DNA of 64,000 nucleotides, from assembly GCF_037392515.1 (NCBI RefSeq), contig NC_090288.1, positions 12,505,969-12,569,968 on the forward strand, given 5' to 3'. The DNA comes from Haliotis asinina. Taxonomy: Eukaryota > Mollusca > Gastropoda > Lepetellida > Haliotidae. Positions 12,250-44,600 of the stretch are shown piece after piece. Position numbers and translations under genes: made by a program. The stretch's first letter is position 1, and each line of letters begins with the position of its first letter. The notes below the pieces were generated by a model, which was not told where the DNA came from, did not search any database, and saw only the letters and a program-made list of their open reading frames with translations.

Positions 12250-13546
12250 TAGTCTGGTTCATAATTATTGAGAATTTTTCTTCTTACTTTGAGCTATCCT
12301 AACACCTCAACTGATTCACTGATACTTAAAACTAAGTAATGGTAAAAGGGAGGTAACTCATCTTGGCCTACTGAGTATAGTACAATTAGAGTTACCTCCC
12401 CTGAATTTGTAGCAGACGTCATTTTCCTCAGCACTGTCAACAATGTCTGCTGAAGATAAAAGAAGGTTGATTTTTGAGTTGTGTAATCAAGGAATTGATG
12501 ATGTAAATACATTGGCAGAGAGAACAGGAACTCCTCTTTCTACTGTGTATAGGATTAGGAAGAATTTTAAAGAGGGAAAGGATTTTGGGCACCAGAAAGG
12601 AGCAGGGAGACCCAGAAAATTGGACTTCTCAGATCGCGTCCGGCTGGGAATTTTAGCGTCTAAAAAGCAAAGGGCAAGCATCTCCAACATCAGGTATGAA
12701 ATGATAGAAAGGGGATGAACAGTTGTATCAACATCTACAGTTAGAAGAAATTTTATTGATCTTGGATGGGAGAAAAAGACTGGAATTCCTTCTCCTCTCA
12801 TGAAACAAGAACATAAAGACAGGCGTGTTGAGTGGTGTTTGGCACATGAAAACTTTGACTGGGAAAATGTGATTTTTACTGATGAAAGCTCAATATGGGT
12901 ATATCCCAATAATGTGAAAATATGGACAAAGTCTGCGTCAGCACCGTTGTATCGACGACCTAAATACAGCCCAAAGTTTCATCTATGGGGAGGGATATCC
13001 TTATTAGGAACGACCCCGCTGTGTGTGTTTGAGGGAAATCTGACAAGTCAACGCTACACTAACATATTAGATAATTTTCTCCTTCCAAGTGCACATGTGT
13101 TTTATGGAAATGACTGGATTTTGCAGCTAGATAATGATCCTAAACACACCGCAAAACATGCCAAGCAGTGGTTTCAGGAGAAAAATGTGACTGCATTACC
13201 ATTTCCTGCATATAGTCCTGACTTAAATCCCATTGAGAACATTTGGGGGATGATGAAGGAATGTGTGAATCCAAAGGGGTTGACAAAAATTGAAGACATG
13301 AAGAGAGAAGTGGTCCGATACTGGGACAGCATAACTCACGAGACACTAACCTCTCTGATAGGAAGTATGCCTACCCGTCTTAGACTGTGCCGTGAAGCTC
13401 AAGGAGACTTGATAAAATATTAAATTGTTACCTACACAACATGAAAATGTCAGTTCACTTTCACAATACATTCAATTTTATCTGATTTGTTCTCGTTTAA
13501 TAATATGAAATGCTTTAGCTATTCTCAATAATTTTGAACCATACTG
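12250..13546 (+). mobile_element. Tc1-family DNA transposon, near complete (copy 1)
   Basis: Bounded by about 25-bp inverted repeats (TAGTCTGGTTCATAATTATT at the left; CAGTATGGTTCAAAATTATT as the complement at the right) and by TA dinucleotides at 12248-12249 and 13547-13548, the Tc1/mariner target duplication. Length 1297 bp. A subterminal inverted repeat (GGGAGGTAACTC ... GAGTTACCTCCC) lies near 12350-12403. It carries one transposase gene. A sister copy is at 42748-44027 in the opposite orientation. Confidence 0.9.
12443..13423 (+). pseudogene. Tc1 transposase (DD34E) with one in-frame stop
   Basis: A 326-codon frame from ATG 12443 to TAA 13421-13423, interrupted by TGA at 12716-12718. 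The N-terminal half has a paired-type helix-turn-helix (LAERTGTPLSTVYRIRKNF) and a GRPRKL AT-hook-like motif. The catalytic domain has IFTDESS (first Asp), QLDNDPKHTAKH (second Asp) and SPDLNPIENIWG (Glu). There are 34 residues between the second Asp and the Glu, so it is DD34E, the Tc1 class. The sister copy has a serine codon (TCA) where this one has TGA, so the stop is a point mutation. Otherwise the gene looks intact. Confidence 0.88.
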
Positions 13547-23683: not shown

Positions 23684-23687
23684 CTGT

Positions 23688-23916
23688 TGTAGTGATTTCC
23701 TACTTCACTATCGGTTTATGCACCTAGTAGAGTCGGTCGCAGACGCCACCGGGCGAATATGCCTACTAAACTGAGGGAAATGATTCAACCTGCCAGATAG
23801 TCAACATACTCACGGTAATGGCTTCCACGAACTCTGGCTGGTGATCGGCAATCTCCGGCTCCTTCCGCCTTGGGTCATGACCTTGGGGCTTCCGGCGTAC
23901 GGCTCCGATCACCACA
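23688..23916 (-). repeat. 3' LTR of the retrotransposon
   Basis: 229 bp; on the minus strand it runs from TGTGGTGATCGGAGCC to GGAAATCACTACA. I find no difference from the other LTR, which implies a recent insertion. On the minus strand it contains a good splice-donor-like GTGAGT. Confidence 0.95.
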
Positions 23917-23932
23917 CCCCTCTCCGTTTTCT
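23917..23932 (-). other. Polypurine tract
   Basis: On the minus strand the run AAAACGGAGAGGGG ends directly at the TG of the 3' LTR. This is the expected position and composition of the plus-strand DNA primer. Confidence 0.75.
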
Positions 23933-24494
23933 AGGCTCCTTCCCGCGGATTTCATAGCCATTAAGCCCCTCTTGCCAAGGTAATCACTGAGGGGCTACCT
24001 TAAAAACAACCAGCCCTGGGGGAACAGTCCTGGTCCCCCCCTCAAAGGCCAGTCCTTTCACCGCCCACAGCGCGTGAGCAAGGCCTTATGCCTCCGGGTC
24101 CACACGCTCCTCGGGTAGACCTAGCCATTCCCCAACCTTTCCATGGGCTGGTTTTGAGTGTCCTCCAAGGAATCCTTAGTGGAAGGGAAAAGTGACAGTT
24201 CTCACAGTTTATCACAGACTCTTTCACCCCCTCCAACTGTCTCACTGTCAGGGACAACTGATAGCACACCCAATCTATTGTTTGTCCTTCCTCAATTGGT
24301 TCCTGTCCTTGTTACAGGACAACCAGCCACGCACCCTCTCTCCTGAGGGTAGGCTGAGTGAATCTGCACACTTGTTTTTCTCCCCACACCTCTTCTTCCA
24401 GGTGTTTTGTGGGTTACACCCCCTCCCCCCTGGGGGTGCAACTGCCAGACTTCCTCACACCCCACTTCCGCGCGGGGTGACTTCCCCAGGGTCC
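23933..24494 (-). other. Untranslated region between ORF3 and the polypurine tract
   Basis: About 560 bp with no reading frame of note on the sense strand, the normal 3' non-coding region of the element. Confidence 0.6.
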
Positions 24495-26744
24495 TCACCA
24501 CCAGAACAGCCGGGTGGCGTTCTCGGTCGCCGCCCTCAGGAAGTCCTCAGTGGTCATCCCTCGGGCTTCGGCGACCAAGTCCCCCACCAGGCACAGCAGC
24601 GCTGGGGAATTCCTCCTATGTCCCTCTGGGGGCATATATGGGGAGTCCGTTTCCACCAGTAGGTGGTCCAGGGGCACAGCTCTCAATCCTGCCGCTTGGT
24701 CGCTGTTGAAACCTCGCACCTGCCCCGCGTAGCCAAAGTACACATTCGGAAAGGTCCTCAGCCACTCCCGGACCGTCTCCTCACCCCCAGAGAAACAGTG
24801 AAGGACCAGTGGCTGTTCTGGAGGCAGATAGGCCAGCAGGAGCTGCATCATACGAGCGTATGTCGCTCCAGCTTCTTCGTCGCCATTGGGTCCCCTGATG
24901 TGCAGGACTACCGGCCTCCCTGCCGGTACGTGGGGCAACAACTCCTTTAGGGCTTGTTCCTGCCTCTTCCATTCCTTGGCCGGAACTGAGTGGTCCAACC
25001 CAATCTCCCCTACAATGCACGCCGCCTTTCCCCACAGCCCCAGCAGCTGCCTGAAGATGCCATCGGTGAGGGCCTCCACCTTCTTAGGGTGCAGCCCCAC
25101 AGCAGTCCTATACCTGGGATCGGCGCTGATCTGGCTTGGGTACGTGGGGGGATCGCAGTAAACTTCCACTCCCCAGACCGGAAGTTGCGCCATCCTGTGA
25201 TCCACTATCGGTGCTGCTTGTAGTAGATCTGGGGTGGTACCCAGGGGTGCTGCTCCAAAGGTAGCCTTCCATGTACGGTCCAGGTGGAAATGGGAGTCTA
25301 CTAGGTGCTCCAATGGAGCCAACTCCTGGGCTTCACCCCCCTGCATGGGCCCCAGTGCTGATGCCCCCTGGACGGTCGCCTCTGCAGCCTCCGGCTGCCA
25401 CCACTCGTCGCATCTACCAACCTCTTCCCCTGGGTCACATCCAGTCGCCCCCTCTGTCGGGGCAGCCCCAGTCTCCTCCTCCGGGGCTGGCCTGTCTTCC
25501 GGGAGCCACATTTCCTCTGGACCATCCACCTCCATCAACTCCTTGTCCCAGGCTTGGGGGGACTGGCTCCGGGCGGTCCATCTTGGCTGCGATGGGCTTG
25601 GTACCAAAAATAAACGGAACTCCCTCCGGCGATCTTCAGATATGAAGTTCAGCAGGTGGAGTAGCACCCGCCATTGCCTCAGGCAGGCTGGCGAGTTGAG
25701 GGGGTGAAGTGAAAACTTCACCGGCGCCCTCCACCCCTGCGCTCGGCATAAGTGTCTCATCCCGGCTATGGCTCCTTCGTGGATGGTGCAGTTTTCGGTG
25801 AGTCGGACATTCCTGTTGAAAAACCGATGCAGTTCCTCAATGGAAGTGCCAGGCCCCAGGATCCACGCCCCCAACTGGCGTAGACCCTGTACCACCTTCT
25901 CCATTACGTCTCGCTCTGGTGCACGTCCCTGGGGGAATCGGGGGCCAAAGTACCTTGGTAGGTGCGCAAAATAGGTGTGATCCTGTAGCTTGCGCGTCAC
26001 TGTCCCGCACCCCTCTACGGGACACCGTGACCCCTGGCCTCTTCTGTCTTTGGCCTCTTGCCTCCTGGTTTGCACCGGCGCCTTCCCCTGGGGACGAGCT
26101 CCTCGGTGACCGGGACGGGGGCCGCGTCTCCCCTGCTCCAAGGCGCGCCCCCTCCCCACAGTCCTTTCTCCCAAGCGGTCCCACACCGCGGGCCTCTTCT
26201 CCTCCTTCTTTTCCTTGAGCCGCCTCCACTGTCCCCCCCCTTTGGGGAACTCCGGTCTCCTCCGGTCTGCCTTTGGTAACGGTTGCACCCTCCGCTTCAC
26301 AATCCTCCTGGGACTTGAGGGTGTCCTCCTTCGTCTACGGCATATGACCTCCGCCGGCTGTCCCTCAATGGTCGGCCTAACCACCTCGCGCACGACCCCC
26401 TCACGTTCCCTCCGACGTGAGGGACGCTCCAGGCCCCTGCCCGGAGACGTGGGTGGCGACTCCCGCCTGGTCTCCTCGACCTGCTTGGGTGACGGCGTCC
26501 TCTGCCGCCGACCTGCCGGCCCCGACACCTCTTCGCCGGCAGGCCTAAACTCCACCTTCCTGGCTCCTGTCCCCCGAACTACCACCTCCGCATAGGTGGG
26601 GCGACCGGCCTCCCTCGGGGTGGGCTCCTCCTGCCGTCCCCCCAGCCCCCTGGCCACCACCTCCGCGTAGGTGGGCCGCCTCTCCTCGTCAGAGGTTGGG
26701 TCAGCTCTCCTCTCTCGCCTTCGATCTGACGACTTCTTCTCCAT
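24495..26744 (-). CDS. Retrotransposon ORF3: Arg-rich protein with Cys2His2-type finger and TatD-family DNase domain
   Basis: Open from 26849 (784 codons). The better start is ATG 26744, residue 36, in AAAATGG context, giving about 749 aa. Numbering below is for 784. The motif RPTYAEVV occurs twice, at 58-65 and 83-90. A basic, proline/arginine-rich region follows to about 270. A finger-like C276, C281, H291, H296 comes next, then a helical region (300-415) and an acidic linker. Residues 513-784 form a complete TatD domain: DSHFHLD (D518, H520, H522), VGEIGLD (E615), VVLHIRG (H650), LHCFSG (H684) and ETDSPYMPP (D735). These are all the metal ligands of the family. TatD proteins are metal-dependent 3'-5' DNases acting in DNA repair and degradation; eukaryotic TATDN2 also has a long basic N-terminus. 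It sits where env would be. Its role here (cDNA trimming, target processing, R-loop or host-DNA attack) is inference. No frame break. Confidence 0.9.
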   Translation of the reverse strand: MEKKSSDRRRERRADPTSDEERRPTYAEVVARGLGGRQEEPTPREAGRPTYAEVVVRGTGARKVEFRPAGEEVSGPAGRRQRTPSPKQVEETRRESPPTSPGRGLERPSRRREREGVVREVVRPTIEGQPAEVICRRRRRTPSSPRRIVKRRVQPLPKADRRRPEFPKGGGQWRRLKEKKEEKRPAVWDRLGERTVGRGRALEQGRRGPRPGHRGARPQGKAPVQTRRQEAKDRRGQGSRCPVEGCGTVTRKLQDHTYFAHLPRYFGPRFPQGRAPERDVMEKVVQGLRQLGAWILGPGTSIEELHRFFNRNVRLTENCTIHEGAIAGMRHLCRAQGWRAPVKFSLHPLNSPACLRQWRVLLHLLNFISEDRRREFRLFLVPSPSQPRWTARSQSPQAWDKELMEVDGPEEMWLPEDRPAPEEETGAAPTEGATGCDPGEEVGRCDEWWQPEAAEATVQGASALGPMQGGEAQELAPLEHLVDSHFHLDRTWKATFGAAPLGTTPDLLQAAPIVDHRMAQLPVWGVEVYCDPPTYPSQISADPRYRTAVGLHPKKVEALTDGIFRQLLGLWGKAACIVGEIGLDHSVPAKEWKRQEQALKELLPHVPAGRPVVLHIRGPNGDEEAGATYARMMQLLLAYLPPEQPLVLHCFSGGEETVREWLRTFPNVYFGYAGQVRGFNSDQAAGLRAVPLDHLLVETDSPYMPPEGHRRNSPALLCLVGDLVAEARGMTTEDFLRAATENATRLFWW

Positions 26745-26782
26745 TTTCGAGATACTCCCTGTGGTTGAGTCAAATGTGGATT

Positions 26783-26800
26783 CCTGAAACAACCAGAACA
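26783..26800 (-). promoter_or_regulatory. Candidate splice acceptor before ORF3
   Basis: Minus-strand TGTTCTGGTTGTTTCAG, pyrimidine-rich and ending in AG at 26785-26784, lies 39 nt before ATG 26744. Paired with the donor at 33717 it would give a subgenomic ORF3 mRNA, as retroviruses do for env. Predicted only. Confidence 0.4.
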
Positions 26801-26938
26801 GGCAATTGGTACTGCGTTCTCCCCATCGCCACACCGACGGGGACAACAACGCCCTCCGACCTGAATCTTCCTGCGTCTACCCCCTCCTCTCAGTGACTCT
26901 AAGCCGACCCAACCCCTCCCCCCTCTTATGGGAAAGTG

Positions 26939-28291
26939 CTACCGCTCCTGTGCTGCCTCCGCACCCTGTTGTTCCAGGGATGTGCACGTGGGGCAATGGT
27001 ACTCCTCCATGGTTTCTGCCATGGATTCAGTCACCCCTACACAATCCCCATGGAACCATTCGTCACATCCATCACAAGCAATCATGAACCCCCCGTCGTC
27101 TGGTTGGCGGCAGTGACAGTGGACGGGCCCTGTCTCCCCCTCCCTTTCTGTTTCCTCCGGATCTTTCTGCTCCCTCTTCAGGGCGGGGCTCTCCTCTCGT
27201 TTCCTCTTCCTGTCTAGCCATCGTGGCATGACACGATCTTGACACAACTTCATCCGGTCGTGGTGAGCTGTGAATCTTCTCCTCTGGCCTGCCACAATGA
27301 ACAGTGTAGGGGATAACTTCTTCTCAATGAGGTATGGTCCCCTCCACACGGGACACAACTTTTTGCATTGTCCCGGGGTCGCCCCTAGATCCAACACATA
27401 GACGGGTTGACCCTGTTCTAGGCTCTGCGATCTTGTGCGTAGATCATAGTCTCTCTTCATTCTCTCCACCGAGGTCTGTAAATTGTTCCGGGCCGCCGCA
27501 TGAGTACCCTCCATGGCCGCTCTGAGTGCTGCAGTGTACTCCTCCGGGTCCTGTTCCGGAGTGGTGGTCCTTGGCCCTCCAAACATTAGATCCGCTGGAA
27601 CATTCACCTCCCGACCCAACATTAACCGGTTGGCTGTGTAACCAGTCTGCCTATTCACCGCCGACCTCATAGCTCCTGCCAATTGGGGCAAGTACTCATC
27701 CCAGGTAGTTTGGGACTTGGCCAGATAGCAGCGGATCATTTGCATCAAAGTCCTATTGAACCTCTCCACCTGTCCATTCGAGGAGGGTCGATACGGTGTC
27801 GTCCGCGTCTTGGTTATTTGCAGCAGCTGGCAGATCTCCTGGAACAGTCGGCTTTCGAAATTTCGGCCCTGATCTGTATGAATCTGGAAAGGGAAGCCGA
27901 ATCTGGCAAAGAACTCGTTGACTGCTGCCCGGGCTGTCACCTCGGCCTTCTGACTCGGAAGGGGTATACATTCCACCCACTTGGTGAATTGGTCCACCAT
28001 CATCAGTATGTGCTGGTTGCCGGACTTGCTCATTGGTAGTGGGCCGATGAAATCCAGGTGCACCCTTTCCATTGGAGCACCTGCATGGAATGAAGTCATC
28101 TTCGACCGGGCATGTCTTGATGGTTTCTTATTACGGCTACACACTGCGCAACTGGCTACGTAGTCCTTGGCGTCCTGCCCGCATCGATACCAGTAGTACC
28201 TCTCCTTGAGTCTCTCCTTGGTTTTGGCCACTCCCATATGTCCACTAATGGGTATGTCATGGACATGTCCCAAGACCTCTTTTGTCAAACT
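26939..28291 (-). CDS. pol: Integrase with GPY/F module and C-terminal PHD finger (3' part of pol)
   Basis: In the same frame as the upstream pol segment but separated from it by TGA at 28294-28292. Numbered from 28288. An HHCC zinc-binding N-terminus (H..H..GHMG, C-x2-C in SCAVC) is followed by the DDE core: HLDFIGPLP, HTDQGRNFES and SNGQVERFNRTL. Next comes a GPY/F module (WRGPYLIEKKLSP, residues about 310-330). The C-terminus holds a full PHD finger, C4HC3: C391, C393, C405, C408, H413, C416, C432, C435, with the core CDGCDEWFHGDCVG. Integrase inserts the cDNA. PHD fingers of this sequence type read histone H3K4 methylation; M402 and W411 lie where cage residues are expected. Many Gypsy integrases end in a chromodomain; here a PHD finger takes that place. 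Stop at 26939-26941. Confidence 0.92.
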   Translation of the reverse strand, partial: SLTKEVLGHVHDIPISGHMGVAKTKERLKERYYWYRCGQDAKDYVASCAVCSRNKKPSRHARSKMTSFHAGAPMERVHLDFIGPLPMSKSGNQHILMMVDQFTKWVECIPLPSQKAEVTARAAVNEFFARFGFPFQIHTDQGRNFESRLFQEICQLLQITKTRTTPYRPSSNGQVERFNRTLMQMIRCYLAKSQTTWDEYLPQLAGAMRSAVNRQTGYTANRLMLGREVNVPADLMFGGPRTTTPEQDPEEYTAALRAAMEGTHAAARNNLQTSVERMKRDYDLRTRSQSLEQGQPVYVLDLGATPGQCKKLCPVWRGPYLIEKKLSPTLFIVAGQRRRFTAHHDRMKLCQDRVMPRWLDRKRKREESPALKREQKDPEETEREGETGPVHCHCRQPDDGGFMIACDGCDEWFHGDCVGVTESMAETMEEYHCPTCTSLEQQGAEAAQER

Positions 28292-31200
28292 TCACGGAAT
28301 CAGTAATCTCTCTGGGGCTTGTACCTCTGGGATCTCCTTTCTCACCAGCACCCCCTCCCCATTTCTTTTGAACAAATCCTTATCCACCCAATAAGATTTT
28401 GCAGCTGGGCTGGATAGGTAGAGCTCTGAGTCAGTGGGGATGCTGCCCTCGTCCAACCACTTCCGTAGGTGCTCGAGGTCACTGTCTTCATTTTGAGCCG
28501 TGGCTAGAGATCTCCCGGTACCCTTCCAGGGATCCACTACTCCCTCCTGTGGGGTTTCCGGCACTGTTAGAGTCCTAACCGAGAAAGTGATTCCTGCTCG
28601 GTGCACTTCCAACGAGTGAGCGGACTCCTCTGCCTGGTCCTCACTCGTTTTCTGGGAGTCCTTTCCCCCACGCCCTCCCCTCACGTGGGTGTTTCCTTCT
28701 GCCATTGACAGTGCCCTGATTGTTCGCGGCCGACCTGCCAACGGAACCACATAGTCGACTTCCTCATGGAACTGCCCCCACTGCTGGTGGGCCTTTTGGC
28801 AGTATCTGCAGCCCCCACAAGGAAGGTCCCGCAGATCCACAAATCGCCGGTAACTGTCGCATGGAGCCTCATCCACCAGACGGGACAGTCCATCGGCATT
28901 CTGATGTTTGGCCCCAGGGCGATGCTCCACTTTCATATCGTACTGGCTCAGTTCTTCTAGCCAGCGAGCCAGTTGCCCCTCCGGCGCCCGGAAGTTCAGT
29001 AGCCACCTCAAGCTACTGTGGTCTGTCCGCACCAGGAAGTGCCGTCCTAACAGGTAATGGCGGAACTGTCGAGTAAACCGGATCACTGCCAGCAACTCTT
29101 TCCGGGTTGTGCAATACCGTCGTTGCTCTGGGGTCAGCGAGAAACTTCCGTAGCTGATCACCCTCTCTTGGCCCTGTTGCCGCTGTAGGAGTTCTGCCCC
29201 AATAGCCAAGTCCGAGGCGTCTGTATCCAGGATAAAAAGGTCTGTCTTCGTGGGCATACCCAACACTGGGGTTTGCAGCAAGGCCTGCTTTAAGGCCTGA
29301 AAGCCTTCCTCTTGTTCCTCCGTCCATTCGAAGGGTTTCTTGCCTGTAATGGCATACAGGGGTGTTGCTATCCTAGCATAGTCTTTAATGAACCCCCGGT
29401 GGTAGTTGGCGAACCCTAGAAACCTCTCCACTTCACGGGTAATAGTAGGTCTCGGCCAGTTCTCCACCGGTCCTAGGCTGGCTGGGTTCACCTTAATCCC
29501 CTCGCCGCTCACTATCCTCCCCAGGAATTCAATCTCTCTCTGAAAGAGTTCACATTTCCGTGGCTTCAATTTCAACTTGTATTCCCTGAATCTTTGTAAT
29601 ACTGTTCGTAGATTTTGGAAATGATCAGGTACAGCTTGTCCCGTCACCACTGCGTCGTCTAAGAACGCTAGAGCGATCTCCCAGCTCAGGCCGGCAAGTA
29701 TCAAGGACATCACTCGGGCGTATGTCGCTGGGGCATTGCACAACCCGAATGCCATCCTCACATGCTCGAAGAGGCCATATTTGGTCACAAAAGCTGTCTT
29801 TTTACAATCCTCTTCCCTGATACGGACTTGCCAATATGCTGAGTTGGCATCCAGTTTCGAAAACCAGGAGCTTGCTGCCAGAGTGTCCAAGCATTCGTCT
29901 ATCAGCGGAAGCGGAAACACGTCCTTCTGGCATTTCTCGTTCACCGCACGGTAGTCTACACAATAGCGTACGCCTCCGTCAGCCTTGCGTATGAGCACTG
30001 GGGCGGACGCCCACTCCGATACTGAAGGGCGGATCACCCCTGCCTCCAGCATTTTCTTTAAGTGAGCCTCCTCCTCTTCAGCGAAACCTAAGGGCGTTCG
30101 TCGCATACGCTGCTTGACCGGAGCCTCCTCTCCAGTGACAATGGCATGCTCAATAGCCGTAAAGTCTCCCAAATCCAAATCATGCTTTGCAAACACATCC
30201 TGAAACTCTATCAACAGGTGTGCTAATTCAATTTGGTCACTGGGGCCCAATTCCTGCTTCGACCGTGTGAATAAGTCCTTCAGGTGTTCCGGGATCATTG
30301 CTCCAACATCCCCCCCTCCCAACTCCTCTGTGGGAGAGGTCCGGCACACCATGGTCTGGGCACTGTCGCCCCCCTCTCGGACGAGGCCCATTACCTCGGC
30401 CACTGAGGCTTGACCCACCGGCTGGCCCTTGTGCAATCTGACAGTATGATCTGCCGTGTTTACCATGCACACCACCGGGGACTGGTGACCCTGGTGCAAG
30501 GTTCTCGGCATCAGCGCATACCGTTCGACTCCTGACACCGGCTCCACCACATATTGCTCCAACTCCCGGCTCATACAGCATGGCACTCTGGTGACGGATT
30601 GGGGCGCCAGCAAGGTTGTCTGAGCCACAGTTACTCTGCATGCCCCTGATTCCCTCTTATTCAGCGTCATAAGAATCTCGCACCCACCAATCGTAATAGT
30701 CCTCTGCCTAACATTGATGTTGGTACAGTGTTTATCTATGAAGTCCAGTCCCAGTATGAGCTGGTCATTGATCGGCGCTACCAGCACCTCTTGCCGGTAT
30801 GTAACACCCCCAATGCGGATACGGGCCATGTCAGTTATCCACCCTTTCATTTTAAGGTCTCGACCGGCGTTGTTTACTATCACTGGTCTAGATATGGGTG
30901 GTTTATCCTGCAGCTGCTCAAAAAACAAGTCAGACACTATAGTGTTCTGGGCTGCGGTGTCTACCACCCCCTGGGTGTCAGTCCCTTGAAACGTCACAGG
31001 TATCAGGTAAGAGGTCCCGTCATCCAGCGCCTTAATCGTGATTATTGGCCATCCAGTTTCCTCATCCACCTCTCCCCCCTTTTCTAAAAGTGGGACGCTA
31101 TCGGTCTGGGCACCCGCATGTGGCGGCCATGGCGGCAGCCCCGGAGTGTCTAATCCTGAATTACTGTGGGCTACACACACCGTGCTCTCTTGGCTCCGGC

Positions 31201-31300
31201 TGGCGCCGCTAGTGTCTGGTGGCCAGGGAGGCAGACCCTTAACCTTATCTGTAACCTTCTGGGGACGAGCCACCGGGTCTATGTGCTCGTCCCCTGGCCG
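28292..31300 (-). CDS. pol: Pol: protease, reverse transcriptase and RNase H
   Basis: The frame is -1 relative to gag and overlaps its end; no AUG is needed if made by frameshifting at 31300. Counting from codon 31273: an aspartic protease with GVVDTAAQNTIVS (Asp 105; the third triad residue is Ala, not the usual Gly) and LILGLDFI; a reverse transcriptase with KLDANSAYWQ and the catalytic box FLDD; an RNase H with LDTDASDLAIGAEL, ..RKELLAV and TDHSSLRWLL; then a linker with a CGGCRYC cluster. The frame meets TGA at 28294-28292, just before the integrase. All catalytic acids of RT and RNase H are visible. This is Gag-Pol of a Ty3/Gypsy element. Confidence 0.93.
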   Translation of the reverse strand, partial: RPGDEHIDPVARPQKVTDKVKGLPPWPPDTSGASRSQESTVCVAHSNSGLDTPGLPPWPPHAGAQTDSVPLLEKGGEVDEETGWPIITIKALDDGTSYLIPVTFQGTDTQGVVDTAAQNTIVSDLFFEQLQDKPPISRPVIVNNAGRDLKMKGWITDMARIRIGGVTYRQEVLVAPINDQLILGLDFIDKHCTNINVRQRTITIGGCEILMTLNKRESGACRVTVAQTTLLAPQSVTRVPCCMSRELEQYVVEPVSGVERYALMPRTLHQGHQSPVVCMVNTADHTVRLHKGQPVGQASVAEVMGLVREGGDSAQTMVCRTSPTEELGGGDVGAMIPEHLKDLFTRSKQELGPSDQIELAHLLIEFQDVFAKHDLDLGDFTAIEHAIVTGEEAPVKQRMRRTPLGFAEEEEAHLKKMLEAGVIRPSVSEWASAPVLIRKADGGVRYCVDYRAVNEKCQKDVFPLPLIDECLDTLAASSWFSKLDANSAYWQVRIREEDCKKTAFVTKYGLFEHVRMAFGLCNAPATYARVMSLILAGLSWEIALAFLDDAVVTGQAVPDHFQNLRTVLQRFREYKLKLKPRKCELFQREIEFLGRIVSGEGIKVNPASLGPVENWPRPTITREVERFLGFANYHRGFIKDYARIATPLYAITGKKPFEWTEEQEEGFQALKQALLQTPVLGMPTKTDLFILDTDASDLAIGAELLQRQQGQERVISYGSFSLTPEQRRYCTTRKELLAVIRFTRQFRHYLLGRHFLVRTDHSSLRWLLNFRAPEGQLARWLEELSQYDMKVEHRPGAKHQNADGLSRLVDEAPCDSYRRFVDLRDLPCGGCRYCQKAHQQWGQFHEEVDYVVPLAGRPRTIRALSMAEGNTHVRGGRGGKDSQKTSEDQAEESAHSLEVHRAGITFSVRTLTVPETPQEGVVDPWKGTGRSLATAQNEDSDLEHLRKWLDEGSIPTDSELYLSSPAAKSYWVDKDLFKRNGEGVLVRKEIPEVQAPERLLIP

Positions 31301-31306
31301 TTTAAC
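31261..31306 (-). promoter_or_regulatory. Programmed -1 ribosomal frameshift signal (gag to pol)
   Basis: On the minus strand: slippery heptamer GTTAAAC (31306-31300, gag codons TTA AAC), 5-nt spacer, then a perfect 10-bp inverted repeat GGGGACGAGC (31294-31285) / GCTCGTCCCC (31270-31261) with a 14-nt loop containing the gag TAG stop. A slip of -1 on AAC continues directly in the open pol frame. GUUAAAC is a known natural slippery site (arteriviruses). Confidence 0.8.
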
Positions 31307-33405
31307 GGTTTGTCAGCAAAGGACACTGACTTGGCTACCGGTGAATTGCTTTTCAACTTTGGACAGGCAGCCTTGAAGTGGTCGGTGTCCCCACAGTTGA
31401 AACAACCTTGTGATTTCCCTGGGCTGGGCGTACGGGAGCGTGATTTTGTACTCCCCAGCCTCCTCATTGCAGTGGTTAGCTCCTGCACTGAATGTACCAG
31501 CTGTGATACTTCCGACTTGACGCACTTCACCTCCTTGTACAATGTTCCAATCTCAGTCTCCATGAGCGAAACTCTCTTGGCTAAATCTGTCACCACCTGT
31601 GCGTTCTTCTTAATATCCCCCTCACACCTGTGGGAGGTTCGGACCTCCCTTGGTGGCTCTTCAGACTCCTCCACTGACATTGTCCGCAACTCCCGACGGG
31701 GTTTACTGTAAGGCACCACCTGGGAGTTATGTTGATAGTGCCTCACTGCCTCTATTGCGTCCTCCAATGAGGTAGGTTTGAGGTTATATATCAAGTTCCC
31801 TGCCTCTCGGTTCTCGCATCCCATGCAGAACCTTGTTATAGTCTCTTGTTCCACAAAGTCTTCTGGAAGACCTGGGAACGCTCGGGACGAAGTAGCTACT
31901 AGTCTCTCTGCCCAAGCTTCCAGTGACTCACCGGGCTCCTGTTTCAGGGATTGAAATCTCAATCTTGCTGATAGTGGAGGCTCAACTATGCCAAATCTCT
32001 TCTGTAGCTTTTCCATCATCTGCCCATAGGACAAGTAGGGGTCCCTCAGCTGACATGTGGTGAAGAAAGCACTTGCCTCCCCCCGCACACAGAAGCACAG
32101 TTGAAAAAGCTTGTCTTCTTCTGACCATCCTTCTCTTTCTGCCAACTTGTCAAACTTCAGCCTGAACGGCGCCCAAGCCTCCTTCCCGTCATAGCTCAGT
32201 GCTGAAGAGGCTATCCGGGATCCCCCTTGATCTGCCGGGCGGGGCCCCTGGTTCCGCCGTCCTCTAGGGGTGCCCGGGTACATGTCGTCCTGGTGGTGCT
32301 GTATTGCACCCTGACGGGGCTCCTGTCTCCTATGTCGCCGGCCCTGTCCCCCCATAAAGGGTTCTGCCGTGCCATCCTGGCCCTCTTCCTGCTCTGCCAG
32401 TCCGAGCCCTGAATCCCGGTGAGGCAGGCTGACTCTACACCCCAGTGCCTCACCCGGGGGTACATAGCACGCTGACTTTTTAGCATTCCGCTCCTTGATC
32501 ATGTCAGTTACTGAGCCCATACCCATGCACTGAATATTGGTGTCTACCTTCTCTGCTCGGGCTCTCGGGCGAACATCCATACCCCTAGCCTCCTCTTGTG
32601 ATAGTCTCGGCTTTGCTGCATTCCCCACTTGGGGCAGGGTGGGAGTTATGGGTTCTGATTTGAACCCCCAGGTCGCCCTTGACTTCCGACTCGGTCTATC
32701 CATCCCTTCCTCCCGGGGTCTATCAAAATCGCTCCCCCTGTATGGGCCATCCCTGCACTCCTCTTCTGGGTAACCTGCCGATTGACAGTCCCTAAAGGTC
32801 CTTACAGACTGGTCCTCTGACCTATGCTGTAAGAGGGACATGGCTGACATCATGTCCTCCTTGTCGGCTGACCACCTCTTGTCCATGTTCTTCAAGACAT
32901 GTATCATCTTGTCATACTTCCGTTCAGTCTCCAGCATCTGAGAGGCTGTCTCCTCACTTCTGCGATCTAGGCCTTGCATGGTGTTCATCATTTTGGCGAA
33001 CACCACCGCCAATCCCTCGGGTGTTCCTTGCCTCCGCCCCGGGGGACTGCCCCCGGCGCACTCCTCCCCACCGGACAAATGGCCCTGATAGTCGGCGTCA
33101 TCACCCTCACCATCAGCCTCTTGGGAAAGCCCAGCTATGTCCCCTGTCTCTGACCCGTAGGCCTCTCCGCCAGACGCAACATTCATAGGGTGTGGGGTTC
33201 GCCTATGGTCATTGGGCTGAAAGTCCAATACTGCCCATATGTCACTCTCCCCTCGGAATTCCTCCATAGCAAACACATCTTCCCTAGTCACATTATATCC
33301 TTGCTCTCTTATATCTGATAAACGACCTATTTGTCTTTCAGACAGCCCTTTGTTTCTCATGTCTGCAGGCATGTCAAAGTTCACCCTTATCTTCCGGCAA
33401 AACAT
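31279..33405 (-). CDS. gag: Gag polyprotein
   Basis: 708 aa, intact. The N-terminal 120 residues are acidic and low in similarity. A helical stretch is at 135-195. Residues about 405-560 match the retrotransposon gag (capsid) domain pattern (W.PFRLKFDKLAEREGW ... RFGIVEPPLSARLRF). A leucine/valine heptad region at 603-650 looks like a coiled coil. A CCHC zinc knuckle follows: C668, C671, H676, C681 (CFNCGDTDHFKAAC). Gag packages the RNA and forms the particle. The stop TAG (31281-31279) lies inside the frameshift hairpin loop. The first in-frame ATG after the leader was chosen as start. Confidence 0.92.
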   Translation of the reverse strand: MFCRKIRVNFDMPADMRNKGLSERQIGRLSDIREQGYNVTREDVFAMEEFRGESDIWAVLDFQPNDHRRTPHPMNVASGGEAYGSETGDIAGLSQEADGEGDDADYQGHLSGGEECAGGSPPGRRQGTPEGLAVVFAKMMNTMQGLDRRSEETASQMLETERKYDKMIHVLKNMDKRWSADKEDMMSAMSLLQHRSEDQSVRTFRDCQSAGYPEEECRDGPYRGSDFDRPREEGMDRPSRKSRATWGFKSEPITPTLPQVGNAAKPRLSQEEARGMDVRPRARAEKVDTNIQCMGMGSVTDMIKERNAKKSACYVPPGEALGCRVSLPHRDSGLGLAEQEEGQDGTAEPFMGGQGRRHRRQEPRQGAIQHHQDDMYPGTPRGRRNQGPRPADQGGSRIASSALSYDGKEAWAPFRLKFDKLAEREGWSEEDKLFQLCFCVRGEASAFFTTCQLRDPYLSYGQMMEKLQKRFGIVEPPLSARLRFQSLKQEPGESLEAWAERLVATSSRAFPGLPEDFVEQETITRFCMGCENREAGNLIYNLKPTSLEDAIEAVRHYQHNSQVVPYSKPRRELRTMSVEESEEPPREVRTSHRCEGDIKKNAQVVTDLAKRVSLMETEIGTLYKEVKCVKSEVSQLVHSVQELTTAMRRLGSTKSRSRTPSPGKSQGCFNCGDTDHFKAACPKLKSNSPVAKSVSFADKPLNGQGTST

Positions 33406-34386
33406 GGTTATTGTTAAATGAAATCACAAGGGTATATCACTGCTAAAACTAATAGATAGTTATACTCTCTCCCGGAGCGAAGGGAAAGAGCAATTAGGCA
33501 AACTACTCCCCTTAATTCTAAAGAGGCGATTGTTAACACACTACAAGCAGTGTTAATATATAAGAGCGTAAGTAAGCGTGAAGCATACAAATACTGCCAC
33601 ACGAGTTGTGCAATTAGGATGTAAATGTCTTCCAACAGTTTCTACCACAATGCAATCCGCTGAAAGTGCACCGCACACCACTGTCTACAAGCAGCCAAGC
33701 AAACGAAATGCACTTACCCCGGTCGCTTGTGCATTCAATCCGGTTCCTGGAATGTCACATCCAATCCGAATAGAATCCGAAGCACATAAATCCACAAATG
33801 AAAAATATGTCCGGCGGTTTACCGTCCTTTACACACAAAGTTCACACGTAACTTGTCCATGTTCAATGTCAACACACTCTCTCCGGAAGAATATGGCGGC
33901 ACTTCCTCCCGCACATGCGCAGTAAGAGGCACGAGGCAGCACAGTGCGCAGAAATAGCCATTTCCAATTTAATCGTAATTTTTCACTATAAGCCACCCCG
34001 AAAGCTATGTACCTCTAATAAATTGGTAGATAACTAGCCCCTGACAGAGAGAAAAGGTCGGTTAGCGCTGTTTCCCTATCGCTGCTCCCAGCCACTTGGT
34101 TGGGAGACCAATAGGTCTCCCCCCTCCCGTCCACGTGCCCCCCCACGTGGGTAGCTAGCTAAGCGATAAAATCTCCACTTAAAGGAAATTTCCCACAAAA
34201 TGTAACCTAATCCTCTCCGCCAACAGTCCGGAGATAATGAAAAACCACCTTTGGTCGCAATAAAAAGGCTAAACTTGCCGAATTACGCCAACAAGGCGTT
34301 AGACCATGTGACCTCCCAAGCGCGGGAAAACCGAGACTTGGGCGGCGATGGTCCGATGGGCGAAAAAAGTTATTTCTCGCCCAGTT
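33406..34386 (-). other. 5' leader of the retrotransposon
   Basis: About 1 kb between primer-binding site and gag. It contains a strong splice-donor match GG/GTAAGTG at 33718/33717 and a perfect 8-bp hairpin (GGGAGACC-AATA-GGTCTCCC, 34102-34121) that could serve RNA dimerisation or packaging. Near it is a CACGTG-C5-CACGTG type inverted pair (about 34131-34148). No coding frame on the sense strand. Confidence 0.55.
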
Positions 34387-34404
34387 TCGGTGTTCACAGC
34401 GCCA
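34387..34404 (-). other. Putative primer-binding site
   Basis: One base inside the 5' LTR the minus strand reads TGGCGCTGTGAACACCGA. It starts with TGG, complementary to a tRNA CCA end. The tRNA species cannot be assigned by eye. Confidence 0.55.
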
Positions 34405-34405
34405 C

Positions 34406-34634
34406 TGTAGTGATTTCCTACTTCACTATCGGTTTATGCACCTAGTAGAGTCGGTCGCAGACGCCACCGGGCGAATATGCCTACTAAACTGAGGGAAATG
34501 ATTCAACCTGCCAGATAGTCAACATACTCACGGTAATGGCTTCCACGAACTCTGGCTGGTGATCGGCAATCTCCGGCTCCTTCCGCCTTGGGTCATGACC
34601 TTGGGGCTTCCGGCGTACGGCTCCGATCACCACA
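34406..34634 (-). repeat. 5' LTR of the retrotransposon
   Basis: 229 bp, apparently identical to 23688-23916. Followed by CTGT, matching the CTGT on the other flank. No obvious TATA box; a minus-strand GTGAGT at 34531-34526 could be a second splice donor. Confidence 0.95.
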
Positions 34635-34638
34635 CTGT

Positions 34639-36640: not shown

Positions 36641-39530
36641 ATGGTAACCATGCCAACAAAAACCACAAAGCGGTCAAATAACTGTTATATGCGGACTTTT
36701 ATTTGGGAGAGATCTGTGTCAGTAGATGTGTGGAGAGATTTTATCCCTGAAAATAAAAGGTGTACCAGGCGTGGAAAATCACCCTTAAAACAAGCGAGAT
36801 TAGACTATTTCTTAATCTCAGAGTCTATATAATTCTGTTACTAAGGCTGACATATCTGCGGGTTATAGAACTGATCATTTTCTTGTTGGTATCACTAATT
36901 CCTTTAAGGATGGCGTAAGACATAATACATATTGGAAGTTTAATACATCTCACTTAAAAGATAAGATATATGTAGATTTAATAAAAGAAACTATATCAAG
37001 GGTTAAATCCCAGTATGCAAAGGAGAATGACGATTCTACTGGAATTGAAGAAATCCCGAACACAGGCCTTGAATTTGTTTTAAATGATCAACTCTTTTTC
37101 GAAGCATTGCTTCTAGAAATAAGAGTAAAAACTGTTTGCTATTCTAGCTTTAAGAAGAATAAGACTCTTGAGAGGGAAAATAACTTGATTCAACAGATTG
37201 AAGTTAATTGTGAAGACTTGGATGATAAAAGAAATGGACTAGAGGAGATAAGAAAACAAAAGAATGTCTGGTGTAGCGATTAGATCAAGAATCAGATGGA
37301 CTATGGAGGGTGAAAACATTAGCAGTCTGTTTTGTAGTTAAAAAAACAATTTTTTTGTCAGTAAACCAATGACTCAACTTAGTGATGGCAATTTACTAAC
37401 TGATTCTAACGATATTATTTTGGAAGCAACACGCTTCTATGAGAATTTGTATAGTAGTAAAGAACATATCGTTGAAGATGTTGATCTAAATTCTGTTGTA
37501 CCATCTTTGAATGATAGTGATATTGAAGAGATGGAGAGTATACTCACTCTAGATGAACTAGCAAAAGCACTGAAGAAAATGCCAAACAATAAGAGTCCTG
37601 GTTCAGATGGGTTCCCTACCGAAGTTTATAAGTTTTTTTAAAGATATTTGACACTTTTTGCTACGTTCAATTAATTATGGGTTCACATCAGAACTTTCCG
37701 TCACACAAAAGCAAGGAGTTATTGTATGCATTCCAAAGGAGGATAAACCTAAACGTTTCCTGAATAACTTGAGGCCAATATCACTTTTGAATGTTTCCTA
37801 TAAATTGGCCTCACGTATAGCAAACAGGATAAAATCAAAGTTGCCCATTATCATTAATGAAGATCAGACTGGTTTCATGGCAGGTCGGTATATTGGCGAT
37901 AACATTCGTTTGATTTATGATGTCATCTCATGTACAGAAAGGAAATGTATTCCCGATATGATGCTACTCATCGCCTTTGAGAAGGTGTTGGACTCTACAA
38001 CCTGGTCATTTATAGACAAGTGTCTAACTTTCAGGGGTTTGGGGGAAAACATTAGAAAATATATTTCTGTCTTTTACACATACTTAAAGAGTTGTATGTC
38101 TATAAATGGTCAAATGTCATCATGGTTTAATGGTCAACGCGGCTGCCGGCAAGGAGACCCCTCGTCACCTTACTTATTTCTTTTGTGTGCAGAGGTGTTA
38201 GCCAATATGATACGTTTCAACAAAGACATAGAAGGTATCCAGATAGATAATCTTGAGTATTTGTTAAGTCAGTTCGCTGACCACACTAGCCTGTTAACTG
38301 GTGGCTAGTCAGTCTTCATTAGAATCATACATTAAGACTTTGGAATTTTTCGCAGACATGTCTGGTCTCAGAATAAATTACAGTAAGACGCAAGTGGTCT
38401 GGATAGGATCGGAGAAAGGTAAGTTGAAATTTATGTGTAAACTCCCTATTACTTGGAACCCGGAGAATTTTATGTACTAACTTGGAGAACATGACTGAGC
38501 TGAATTTTAAAGACACGCTATTTGAACTAAAACATCATCAATAGATGGATGAAAAGGATTGTTACACCAGTTGGAAGGGTTGCAATTATCAAGTCACTAC
38601 TAGTATTATTGCCTGACCCCTCTTCGGACTTTCTTGTGCCACTTAATAACATACTGTTTAAATTTTCATGGGGTGGTAAAAGAGATAAAGTAAATCGACG
38701 CGAGGTGTGTCAGCCAGTAAAACATGGTGGATTAGAAATGGTTAATATAATTTACGTGTGAAATCCCTGAAAACCGTTTGGTCGCGGAAGCTTGTGACAG
38801 CAGATAATCCAAAGTGGAAGCTCTTATTCAAGTCTTCATATCCTCATATGTGTAATTTAGATGAATTTGGTACTGCCTATTTTGAGAATATCTTGCCCAC
38901 AGTCAACAATGTATTCTGGAAAAATTGCGTTCATCATTCATTGCCTTTGATAAGAAAATTAAGCCTGAACGGTTTAGTAGTTTCCTGACTGAGCCTATTT
39001 TTCCATAATACCAACGTTAAAGTTCAGAAGATGCCACCTTTTTCTGAAACATTGGTACCAGAAGGGTATAACACAGATCATAGATTTAATGGATGAAAAT
39101 AAATATTTTTTTACTTATGAGGAATTTAGAGAAATATACCCTATGCGTTCATCGTTTTTGGAATTTCATGGGGTAATAAACAGCATTAAACATTATCTTG
39201 CAGCCCTTAAGTTAACCAAAAGTACACCAGACTGTGTTGAAGAACATCTTAGTACCATACACAAGTGTGCAGTGTGCGTTCAGGTTCTAAACATGTTTAC
39301 CTTTGTAGCATCAGAAATAAAAAAAAATGGTCAAGAAAAATGGGAACTGAAATTTGGTAAGCTTCCATGGAATGATATCTGCAGTAAGGTATTAAGTACA
39401 ACCCTGGAAGTGAAACTGCTCTGGTTTCAGTATAGACTGGTGCACAATATAACAACTGACGCCATTTTTAGTATCCACATTGGTGTCTCATGGGGTATCA
39501 AATTTCAGCCTTTCACTGTAACGTCTTAGA
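36640..39530 (+). pseudogene. APE-type LINE (L1/Tx1-like) relic, 5' truncated
   Basis: Translations in several frames give, in order: the end of an APE endonuclease (RRGKSPLKQARLDYFLISES, about 36770-36832); the linker with TDHFLVGI; an RT with MPNNKSPGSDGFPTEVYK (37580-37640), RPISLLNVSYKLASR, DQTGFMAGRYIGDNIR and RGCRQGDPSSPYLFLLCAEVL (37658-38308); then the C-terminal parts (GRVAIIKSLLVLP-like, FSWGGKRDKVNRR, 38549-38760; KLLWFQYRLVHNI, to 39529). RT catalytic residues are lost: the first Asp position reads LLIAFEKVLDS and the FADD box reads FADHTS. With many frameshifts and stops it is inactive. Confidence 0.85.
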
Positions 39531-39781: not shown

Positions 39782-40129
39782 GTATGAACCACATTTATTT
39801 TTCAACATAGTCCACTTGTGAGTCAAGAAACTTGTTACATCTTTTCTGCCAGGCGCTGATGCCATCTCTGTAGAAGGCGCCATTTTGGTCCTCAAACCAA
39901 GCCTCAGTAGCAGCAATAAGCTCATTAGCATCCTGAAATCTACGACCACGCAAGTGTATGAACCACATTTATTTTTCAACATAGTCCCCTTGTGAGTCAA
40001 GAAACTTGTTACATCTTTTCTGCCAGGCGCTGATGCCATCTCTGTAGAAGGCGCCATTTTGGTCCTCAAACCAAGCCTCAGTAGCAGCATTAAGCTCATT
40101 AGCATCCTGAAATCTACGACCACGCAAGT
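39782..40129 (-). repeat. 174-bp tandem duplication of a mariner tail
   Basis: 39782-39955 and 39956-40129 are copies with about two substitutions. Both encode the last part of the mariner transposase and its 3' end on the minus strand (AFYRDGISAWQKRCNKFLDS type). It duplicates only the 3' part of the element at 39956-40701. Confidence 0.85.
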
Positions 40130-40701
40130 GTTTCTTGAGATTTGGGAACAGATGGTAATCACTTGGTGCCAGGTCTGGAGAGTAGCGGGTTTGCGGCAAG
40201 ATTTCGTACCCGCATTCCTGGACAGCACCGGCTGCAACGCGAGAGGTGTGTACTGGAGCTGTCTTGATGTAGAAGAATACCACGTCTGATCTTGCACCGG
40301 CGCTTCTCCTTGATTGACTGTCGCACTTGCCTCGACAAGTTAGCGCTCTCAGGATCATAGTGGTGGATCCAGATTTCATCACAGGTTACTAGCCTAAAGT
40401 GAAAATCTTCTGGAATCTTGTTGTATCTGGTTAGCATGGAGTAGCTTATGGTGACCCTTGTTTGCTTCATTTCATCTGTAAGCATTCCCGGCCCCCATCT
40501 TGCGCACACCTTAGACATGACGAGATGTTCATGAAGAATTGTCTCGATGGATCCGTGTGAAATGCCTGTGGTCTCCTCTAGCTCATGGAGTGGATTTTCC
40601 CCACAAACTGCTGAAAGCCTTTCTATAATGTTCTTCGCCGAGTTTCCTTCAAGAACTAAAAACTTAATTACTGCTCTATACTCAATTTTATTCATTTTCA
40701 C
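39956..40701 (-). pseudogene. mariner-family transposase relic (DD34D type)
   Basis: Starts at ATG 40701 (MKMNKIEYRAVIKFLVLEG). It has an internal deletion, then HLVMSKVCARW.P-like, RYNKIPEDFHFRLVTCDEIWIHHYDPES (first catalytic Asp block, DEIW) and, after a frameshift near 40260, KTAPVHTS (the Asp of the usual DNAP motif is lost) and SPDLAPSDYHLF, the mariner DD34D signature. Shares ancestry with the transposase half of vertebrate SETMAR. Inactive. Confidence 0.82.
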
Positions 40702-41642: not shown

Positions 41643-44600
41643 ATGTATCGACACATGATGCGTGTTTCCGTTTTCGTGTCGTTGTCGACGATGTCGCTAC
41701 TAAGCGGAGTCACAGCCACTTCTCTCGGCACAACCAGGAAGTGCATGTCTGGGAGAAAAGACACAGCAGACGACACTAACTGTCATTACTACTGGAACTG
41801 CTTCAACGACGTTGCGTACAAGAAAGCGTGTCCACCCTACCTTTGTTTCAACGATGTTACGGGGACCTGTGATGACGCTGCCAACGTCACATGCAGCTGC
41901 GTATGTCCATTTGAGAAATCAGACAAGGCTCCAGATGTTCCAGGTACGATTCTAGATTCAATAATATTTGCAGGAAATGGATGTGTGTGAGTTGGAAATT
42001 GTATTAGCTGCATTTTTAATCGTGAGTGTTGTTCTTTCTTACGTGGTGAGGACAGGATATCATAGTTGGTGAGTCACTAAGCAGGGGATGTGGAATATTG
42101 CAGGGGTTTTGCGGTGGGGATCCCAGAAAATCTGCAAGATGGAGACATATTGATGGGCAAAAGAACCTATACACTACTGTTTTATGGTGACTATAACTGA
42201 AACAAACGAAAATTGATTGATTGATTTATTTATTTATTTATTTATTTATTTATGTTTGTTTTGTTTTATGGTCGTTTTTTATTTATTTTTTGTTATTTTG
42301 AAATGTTTCTTATTGCAGCCTTGTAATTTTCTATTTTTGTGACATTGGTATCTATTCCAGTTTTTAAAATGTATTTTTTTTGCCCACAGTTCTTTGAAGC
42401 ACAGTGTCATGAAGATAACGAAAGAATATACAATATAGGGAACGGTTTTCTCGTCAAATGAAGCTGATATGCTTACTAAATGATACGTTCTCTCGACGAG
42501 AACCTGATGATGACAAATATATCTTAAAAGGTTATATTAAGCCATGCAAACAGAACTGAATGAAAGCAAAGCAGCACTTGTTTTTGTATATTTTCGGCAA
42601 ATGTGTTTAAACGAGGGTAGGTGCAAATTACCCAGGTCAGTGGGTTATTTCAAATGAAGTGAAACCCCTGAAGATGTTCAATATATGAAACGCGTTATAT
42701 TTTCTAGCTTCATGTTAGACTTGCGGTTTCTGTCCAGCCTTCTTATACAGTATGGTTCAAAATTATTGAGAATAGCTAAAGCATTTCATATTATTAAACG
42801 AGAACAAATCAGATAAAATTGAATGTATTGTGAAAGTGAACTGACCTTTTCATGTTGTGTAGGTAACATTATAATATTTTATCAAGGCTCCTTGAGCTTC
42901 ACGGCACAGTCTAAGACGGGTAGGCATACTTCCTATCAGAGAGGTTAGTGTCTCGTGAGTTATGCTGTCCCAGTATCGGACCACTTCTCTCTTCATTTCT
43001 TCAATTTTTGTCAACCCCTTTTGATTCACACATTCCTTCGTCATCCCCCAAATGTTCTCAATGGGATTTAAGTCAGGGCTATATGCAGGAAATGGTAATG
43101 CAGTCACATTTTTCTCCTGAAACCACTGCTTGGCATGTTTTAGGATCATTATCTTGCTGCAAAATCTAGTCATTTCCATAAAACACATGTGCACTTGGAA
43201 GGAGAAAATTATCTAATATGTTAGTGTAGCGTTGACTTGTCAGATTTTCCTCAAACACACACAGCGGGGTCGTTCCTAATAAGGATATCCCTCCCCATAC
43301 ATGAAACTTTGGGCTGTATTTAGGTCGTCGATACAACGGTATCGATACAATTGTCCATATTTTCACATTATTGGGATATACCCATATTGAGCTTTCATCA
43401 GTAAAAATCACATTTTCCCAGTCAAAGTTTTCATGTGCCAAACACCACTCAACACGCCTGTCTTTATGTTCTTGTTTCATGAGAGGAGAAGGAATTCCAG
43501 TCTTTTTCTCCCATCCAAGATCAATCAAATTTCTTCTAACTGTAGATTTTGAAACAACTGTTGATCCCCTTTCTATCATTTCATACCTGATGTTGGAGAT
43601 GCTTGCCCTTTGCTTTTTAGACGCTAAAATTCCCAGCCGGACGTGATCTGAGAAGTCCAATTTTCTGGGTCTCCCTGCTCCTTTCTGGTGCCCAAAATCC
43701 TTTCCCTCTTTAAAATTCTTCCTAATCCTATACACAGTAGAAAGAGTTCCTGTTCTCTCTGCCAATGTATTTACATCATCAATTCCTTGATTACACAACT
43801 CAAAAATCAACCTTCTTTTATCTTCAGCAGACATTGTTGACAGTGCTGAGGAAAATGACGTCTGCTACAAATTCAGGGGAGGTAGCTCTAATTGTACTAT
43901 ACTCAGTAGGCCAAGATGAGTTACCTCCCTTATACCATTACTTAGTTTTAAGTATCAGTGAATCAGTTGAGGTGTTAGGATAGCTCAAAGTAAGAAGAAA
44001 AATTCTCAATAATTATGAACCAGACTATACAAGATACAAAATATCAAGCAATAACTCTCGTGTGTTATTTTGGCACTACGATCAAGCAGAAAAACTACGT
44101 TTTACGATGGTGCAATTCTGTTGTAATGACTTTAAGTGGTCAGGCTCGCTAAATGGGTTTATACACGTAATTCCACTTTCGTAGAACGGTGCTCATGCTA
44201 TTGATCACTGAATTGTCTGGTCCAGAGTCTATTATTTACAGACCACCGCGGTATAGCTGGATTATGAGTGTGAAAAAACAAGCAAACAGATCTCTTTTAT
44301 TAATTTATGCACTTCAGTTCCGATCACTGATTAAAAAATGACATTGTGACATCTTGCAGGGTTCGCCATGGCAGCCGTCGAGCAACTGTGTTCTGGTGGT
44401 GCAAACATCATTCCACATCCGAGTGAGTGCCAAAAGTACTACAACTGCTCAGTGGCCTCAACGACCCCTGACGTTTACTTGACAAAATTCGAAGCCGAGT
44501 GCATGTACCCTCAAGCCTTTTCCACCGTCAACTTGCGTTGCCAGGACTTCCGAACGGTGGACTGTGGGCAGAGAGCTGTCAAGCTTGACTACTGTGAGTA

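Follow-up and report, generated by a model that had tools for sequence, protein, structure and literature searches.

A Ty3/Gypsy-type retrotransposon of Haliotis asinina carries a TatD-family gene as a third open reading frame

An LTR retrotransposon in Haliotis asinina carries, between pol and the polypurine tract, a third open reading frame (ORF3) whose C-terminal domain has the predicted fold and the complete active-site pattern of the TatD nuclease family. We read ORF3 as a genuine third gene of a Ty3/Gypsy-type lineage with a PHD-ended integrase, predicted to be expressed from a spliced message and to process the element's own intermediates, and we give this reading a probability of roughly 55%. 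In the following, the window means the whole stretch of 64,000 nt that was analysed.

Structure of the element

The element is 10,947 bp long and fills positions 23688-34634 of the window on the minus strand. Its 5ʹ LTR (34406..34634, minus) and 3ʹ LTR (23688..23916, minus) are both 229 bp long with TG...CA ends, and are the same in sequence. The flanks carry the target-site duplication ACAG, at 34635..34638 on the 5ʹ side and at 23684..23687 on the 3ʹ side. Because the LTRs are identical and flanked by ACAG on both sides, the insertion is judged from its sequence to be recent. A candidate primer-binding site of 13 nt (34392..34404, minus) starts one base past the 5ʹ LTR, and a candidate polypurine tract (23917..23930, minus; 14 nt with one C) adjoins the 3ʹ LTR. 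Along the element, a leader of about 1 kb is followed by gag, pol part 1, pol part 2, ORF3, the purine tract and the 3ʹ LTR; the element was read at the DNA level from this single copy.

The gag frame (31279..33405, minus; 708 aa) matched Pfam PNMA at 1.3e-6, and its CCHC knuckle was slightly below the cut-off. The pol frame, which is -1 relative to gag, overlaps the 3ʹ end of gag. According to Pfam, part 1 of pol (28292..31273, minus) encodes protease, reverse transcriptase and RNase H, and part 2 (26939..28288, minus) encodes H2C2 (2.2e-16) and core integrase (rve, 5.8e-16) domains, followed by a PHD finger at the integrase C-terminus (26984-27118, minus; Pfam PHD 7.9e-11). In the one copy read, which by its identical LTRs is otherwise young, an in-frame TGA (28292..28294, minus) lies at the boundary of RNase H and integrase. 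Since this TGA parts RNase H from the integrase, the pol of the window copy is probably broken, and the copy may therefore be unable to move by itself. Related pols with reverse transcriptase and integrase in a single frame were present among the 120 pol matches listed of 1083, and 63 of these 120 carried a PHD-like signature as defined by our own regular expression.

The order of protease, reverse transcriptase, RNase H and integrase, together with the TG...CA LTR pair and the 4-bp duplication, is that of a Ty3/Gypsy-type element; an LTR pair with TG...CA ends and a duplication of 4-6 bp is a Gypsy criterion (PMC12440569, in part). The element also shares a gag, of the PNMA type, with Ty3/Gypsy elements (Metaviridae), but differs from them in having a terminal PHD finger on the integrase and a TatD ORF3. 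No chromodomain was found at the pol C-terminus (Pfam, E<=0.1), where the PHD finger lies instead, which sets the element apart from chromoviruses, defined by a chromodomain at this position (PMC12440569, in part). Troyka, likewise an animal LTR element that includes one from an abalone, was rejected as well, since Troyka has CG...CG ends and 3-bp duplications (PMC12440569, in part) whereas our element has TG...CA ends and the 4-bp ACAG.

ORF3 encodes a TatD-family protein with additional N-terminal domains

The original prediction of an intact 784-codon frame on the sense strand, between pol and the purine tract and inside the two LTRs, agreed with what was found at 24495-26849, the minus strand being the sense strand of the element. 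This count starts at a TTG, not at an ATG. From the first ATG, at 26744 and the sole in-frame ATG within 515 bases of the start of the frame, ORF3 (24495..26744, minus) encodes 749 aa. Among 2,000 simulated first-order Markov sequences of the same make-up as the real sequence, each read in all six frames, the longest run without a stop codon reached at most 592 codons, with a median of 205.

All of the motifs that had been named as signs of a TatD domain (DSHFHLD, GEIGLD, LHIRG, LHCFSG and ETDSPY) were present in ORF3. The metal ligands inside them are H520, H522, E615, H650, H684 and D735, and the TatD active-site pattern HxH, E, H, H, ExD is complete. An HMM search and a structure prediction had been proposed as checks, and both supported the assignment: Pfam TatD_DNase (PF01026) was returned at 1.9e-34 with 119.6 bits against a cut-off of 27, and the domain (24498..25313, minus) adopted the barrel fold of the family in the predicted model.

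Upstream of the barrel, ORF3 begins with a basic tail (26028..26744, minus; pI 11.7 for the first 240 residues). It is followed by a C2H2 zinc finger (25962..26024, minus; C276, C281, H291 and H296, with the TTG as residue 1), a helical domain in the predicted fold (25614..25961, minus) and a linker predicted to be disordered (25314..25613, minus; pLDDT <50 over most of it). The four finger residues were kept in 50, 50, 48 and 51 of 64 aligned rows, respectively, with 9-12 rows gapped. The finger and the helical domain were predicted with a mean pLDDT of 92.4, and a Foldseek search of PDB and BFVD with this module gave no match at E<=0.001. Compared with TatD, YcfH, TATDN1 and TATDN3 (PF01026), the abalone TatD differs in being borne by a retroelement and in having the C2H2/helical module and the basic tail. 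TATDN2 has a long N-terminal part followed by a C-terminal TatD domain, and ORF3 is like it in this layout, as far as that general description goes.

Conservation of the active site

In the alignment (A3) of 63 of the 121 homologs (P0001-P0064 minus P0017, P0044 and P0045, plus P0066 and P0068), homologs matched the window ORF3 at 39% on average over 260 columns, and all six metal ligands were kept in 61 of the 63, the exceptions being P0004 and P0054. In the A3 profile, H587, E615, E733 and D735 align with H62, E91, E201 and D203 of E. coli TatD, and all four were kept in 62 of the 63 homologs. The H62A substitution significantly reduced the activity of E. coli TatD, and E91A, E201A and D203A were inactive (PMC4176340, in part). 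The nearest ORF3 protein, P0001, is also from H. asinina and is 97% identical (15 differences in 469 residues), with none of the differences at the named active-site residues.

Of 15 pairs compared, 11 had a TatD domain that was better conserved than the linker (p<0.05); the pairs overlap in that sequences are shared between them, and one has a linker of 6 columns. The difference was not significant in the other four, including the window against P0001 (p=0.12). The kept active-site residues and the better conservation of TatD than of the linker speak for selection on the enzyme across lineages, at the level of protein conservation, which is distinct from dN/dS.

Predicted splicing of the ORF3 message

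Splice sites were scored with a weight matrix of the textbook kind. The predicted donor GT in the leader (GGG/GTAAGTG; 33716..33717, minus) ranked second among 611 GT in the element, and the predicted acceptor AG before ORF3 (TTGTTTCAG/G; 26784..26785, minus) ranked second among 986 AG. The ATG of ORF3 is the first ATG in any frame downstream of this acceptor. A spliced, env-like message would therefore result, in which donor 33717 is probably joined to acceptor 26785 and translation starts at the first AUG, 26744. Single splice-site scores are weak evidence, and both ranks taken with the ATG are suggestive. The top-scoring donor (element position 2704) and acceptor (593) are sites other than those proposed for ORF3. 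The latter, at window position 34042 (minus), lies in the 5ʹ leader upstream of donor 33717 and would be compatible with a possible extra leader intron.

In env-bearing Gypsy elements, env follows pol and is read from spliced RNA. These elements (errantiviruses, Anakin) likewise have an extra gene besides gag and pol, but ORF3 has a nuclease fold, not a glycoprotein fold. Capture of env by Gypsy elements has been described (PMC12440569, in part).

Proposed function of ORF3

Retroelements make single-stranded DNA 3ʹ ends, RNA:DNA hybrids and gapped integration products. The basic tail and the C2H2/helical module of the ORF3 protein would probably bind nucleic acid, to which the flexible tether would bring the metal-dependent TatD nuclease. 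There, while reverse transcription and integration take place or once they are completed, TatD would most likely trim or clear single-stranded DNA 3ʹ ends or the RNA of RNA:DNA hybrids. We favour such processing of the element's own intermediates because the known substrates of TatD and TATDN2 match what a retroelement makes: E. coli TatD is a 3ʹ-5ʹ exonuclease on single-stranded DNA and RNA (PMC4176340, in part), and TATDN2 was reported to cut RNA in R-loops (PMC12709183, in part).

The same nuclease could instead act in counter-defence, by removing competing DNA, or by degrading host nucleic acid or stray cDNA in the cytosol that would set off DNA sensing. The accessory, env-like position of a metal-dependent nuclease outside pol suits this function, the preference of E. 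coli TatD for single-stranded DNA and RNA (PMC4176340, in part) would fit it, and the basic tail and the finger/helical module speak against it, since they suggest targeting to a particular nucleic acid. Our data contain no link from ORF3 to any defence, and we regard counter-defence as unlikely. The TREX1-like hiding of cDNA is a precedent for it.

If it is true that the element owns a conserved nuclease, retrotransposons can carry repair-type enzymes and need not depend entirely on the host. Such an enzyme would also allow the factors that limit reverse transcription or integration in animal cells to be probed directly.

Homologs of ORF3 and their linkage to pol

Homologs of ORF3 were found in Haliotis, Mytilus, Saccostrea, Pinctada, Dreissena, Diadema and Ptychodera. 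The occurrence of kin with an intact cutting site in mussels, oysters and sea urchins suggests that the enzyme probably helps the element to copy itself or to survive in the cell. Haliotis rubra has three homologs (P0002-P0004), each with a different longest contig.

The TatD tree was made with 97 of 197 extracted domains: 63 retro-type rows left after three near-copies were dropped, 12 CCHC_euk and 22 bacterial rows. Retro-type and CCHC_euk are our own labels, the CCHC knuckle being present only in some rows of the latter, and the rows labelled bacterial are 17 genome contigs, one viral contig and four proteins. Fifty-nine retro-type rows formed one clade (96/84), apart from the 22 bacterial rows (100/100) and from a 6-row clade (100/100) in which some rows have CCHC knuckles. 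Within the clade, P0025, P0053, P0055, P0056 and P0062 had no match to the finger/helical profile; outside it were the retro-type-labelled P0060, P0061, P0063 and P0064. At the midpoint root, the branch between most retro-type rows and all others was weak (81/36). The tree called for by the original prediction thus separated these TatDs from the bacterial ones, in a set of rows that includes no TATDN1, 2 or 3 reference. The capture of a host TATDN2-like gene that had been proposed along with it is a possible origin of ORF3.

No eukaryotic relatives were confirmed among viral contigs in our scans; one such scan gave 8 loci of 23-30% identity, with the match confined to query residues 513-783. 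The matches listed from the genome-contig scan, 80 of 589 confirmed loci, were bacterial TatDs and were used as the outgroup. Thiodiazotropha and Sedimenticola live with bivalves, and the retroelement-type TatDs in two bacterial bins, P0024 (Candidatus Thiodiazotropha taylori MAG) and P0035 (Sedimenticola MAG), are probably host DNA contaminating these bins.

A second linkage of pol and TatD was found in Mytilus edulis, where one gene model (P0044) consists of retropepsin and a pol segment before integrase, then the finger/helical domain and TatD, in an order that matches the abalone element. By eye, the initial residues of the H2C2 domain were also recognizable. Its pol part matched the window pol at 4e-27 (blastp) and its TatD matched at 1.7e-43. 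The model skips reverse transcriptase, RNase H and most of the integrase, so the linkage rests on a predicted splice pattern. Four further gene models of M. edulis (P0242-P0245), which differ in their longest contigs, share this pol part at 90-96% identity, as would be seen with repeats. None of the 120 listed pol matches (of 1083) had TatD in the same protein, which is expected for a separate ORF but gives no support. Because of the fused Mytilus model, the H. rubra homologs and the kept active site, the predicted Ty3/Gypsy-type element whose third ORF is of the TatD family is unlikely to be a one-off.

The clade could mainly be a host gene family of marine invertebrates that abalone and mussel elements acquired independently. 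This would explain why P0044 is the sole TatD homolog with a readable link to pol, why many homologs have a different N-terminal domain, absent from the window ORF3, and why databases label the homologs as ordinary predicted genes. However, clusters with many near-identical members (125 for P0037 and 47 for P0033) resemble mobile copies, even if databases may repeat entries. The finger/helical profile was matched at E<=1 by 66 of the 120 listed TatD homologs, most of which trained it, and the 59 rows form one clade. We consider a host family rather improbable. If the nuclease is the element's own, a share of the TatD genes predicted in molluscs and sea urchins may belong to transposons. That ORF3 is a passenger, a host gene transduced once and without any role in the element, accords with the DNA-level reading of one copy, but is already strained by the homologs with a kept active site in seven genera, the Mytilus linkage, the faster divergence of the linker in most pairs and the splice signals that fit ORF3, and is very improbable.

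Among the open-licence papers listed, judged by titles and the starts of abstracts, no description of TatD or Tpt1 in a retroelement was found, and words beginning TatD or PHD were absent from the main text of two mollusc Gypsy papers (PMC6238403 and PMC8905726, in part). Related reports, each likewise in part, were a TATDN2 gene among the non-Hox genes in the squid Hox cluster (PMC6962438), a TATDN2 retrocopy (PMC5408686) and a PHD match that is a host gene (PMC3286476); as additional components of LTR elements, PMC12440569 names the chromodomain and env.

Tpt1/KptA domains in related pols and other features of the window

A Tpt1/KptA RNA 2ʹ-phosphotransferase domain (PF01885) was present in P0208 (3.6e-54) and P0235 (4.2e-43), two out of the 120 pol relatives listed, and in P0248, one of the 28 proteins of a further set. 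It lies upstream of the protease in P0208 and, by eye, in P0248, and between the integrase and the PHD finger in P0235. With Tpt1/KptA at two places in pol relatives, uptake of nucleic-acid enzymes may have occurred repeatedly in the Gypsy-type lineage, although assembly or frame errors are conceivable. We tentatively suggest, as possible but doubtful, that this marine-invertebrate lineage is a platform for exchangeable nucleic-acid-processing enzymes, with TatD as a spliced third gene and Tpt1/KptA in pol, serving as an end-repair or stealth kit. No description of such an accessory function of these enzymes in LTR elements was found in the literature searched.

Elsewhere in the window, transposase pieces at 12800-13423 (plus) and 43166-43834 (minus) matched a DDE_3 endonuclease and, below the curated cut-offs, Tc3-type helix-turn-helix domains. 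A fragment at 37658-38308 (plus) matched reverse transcriptase (E 7.5e-18), and two-copy tandem duplications were present at 3844-4241 (197 bp, 100%) and 39782-40131 (174 bp, 98%).
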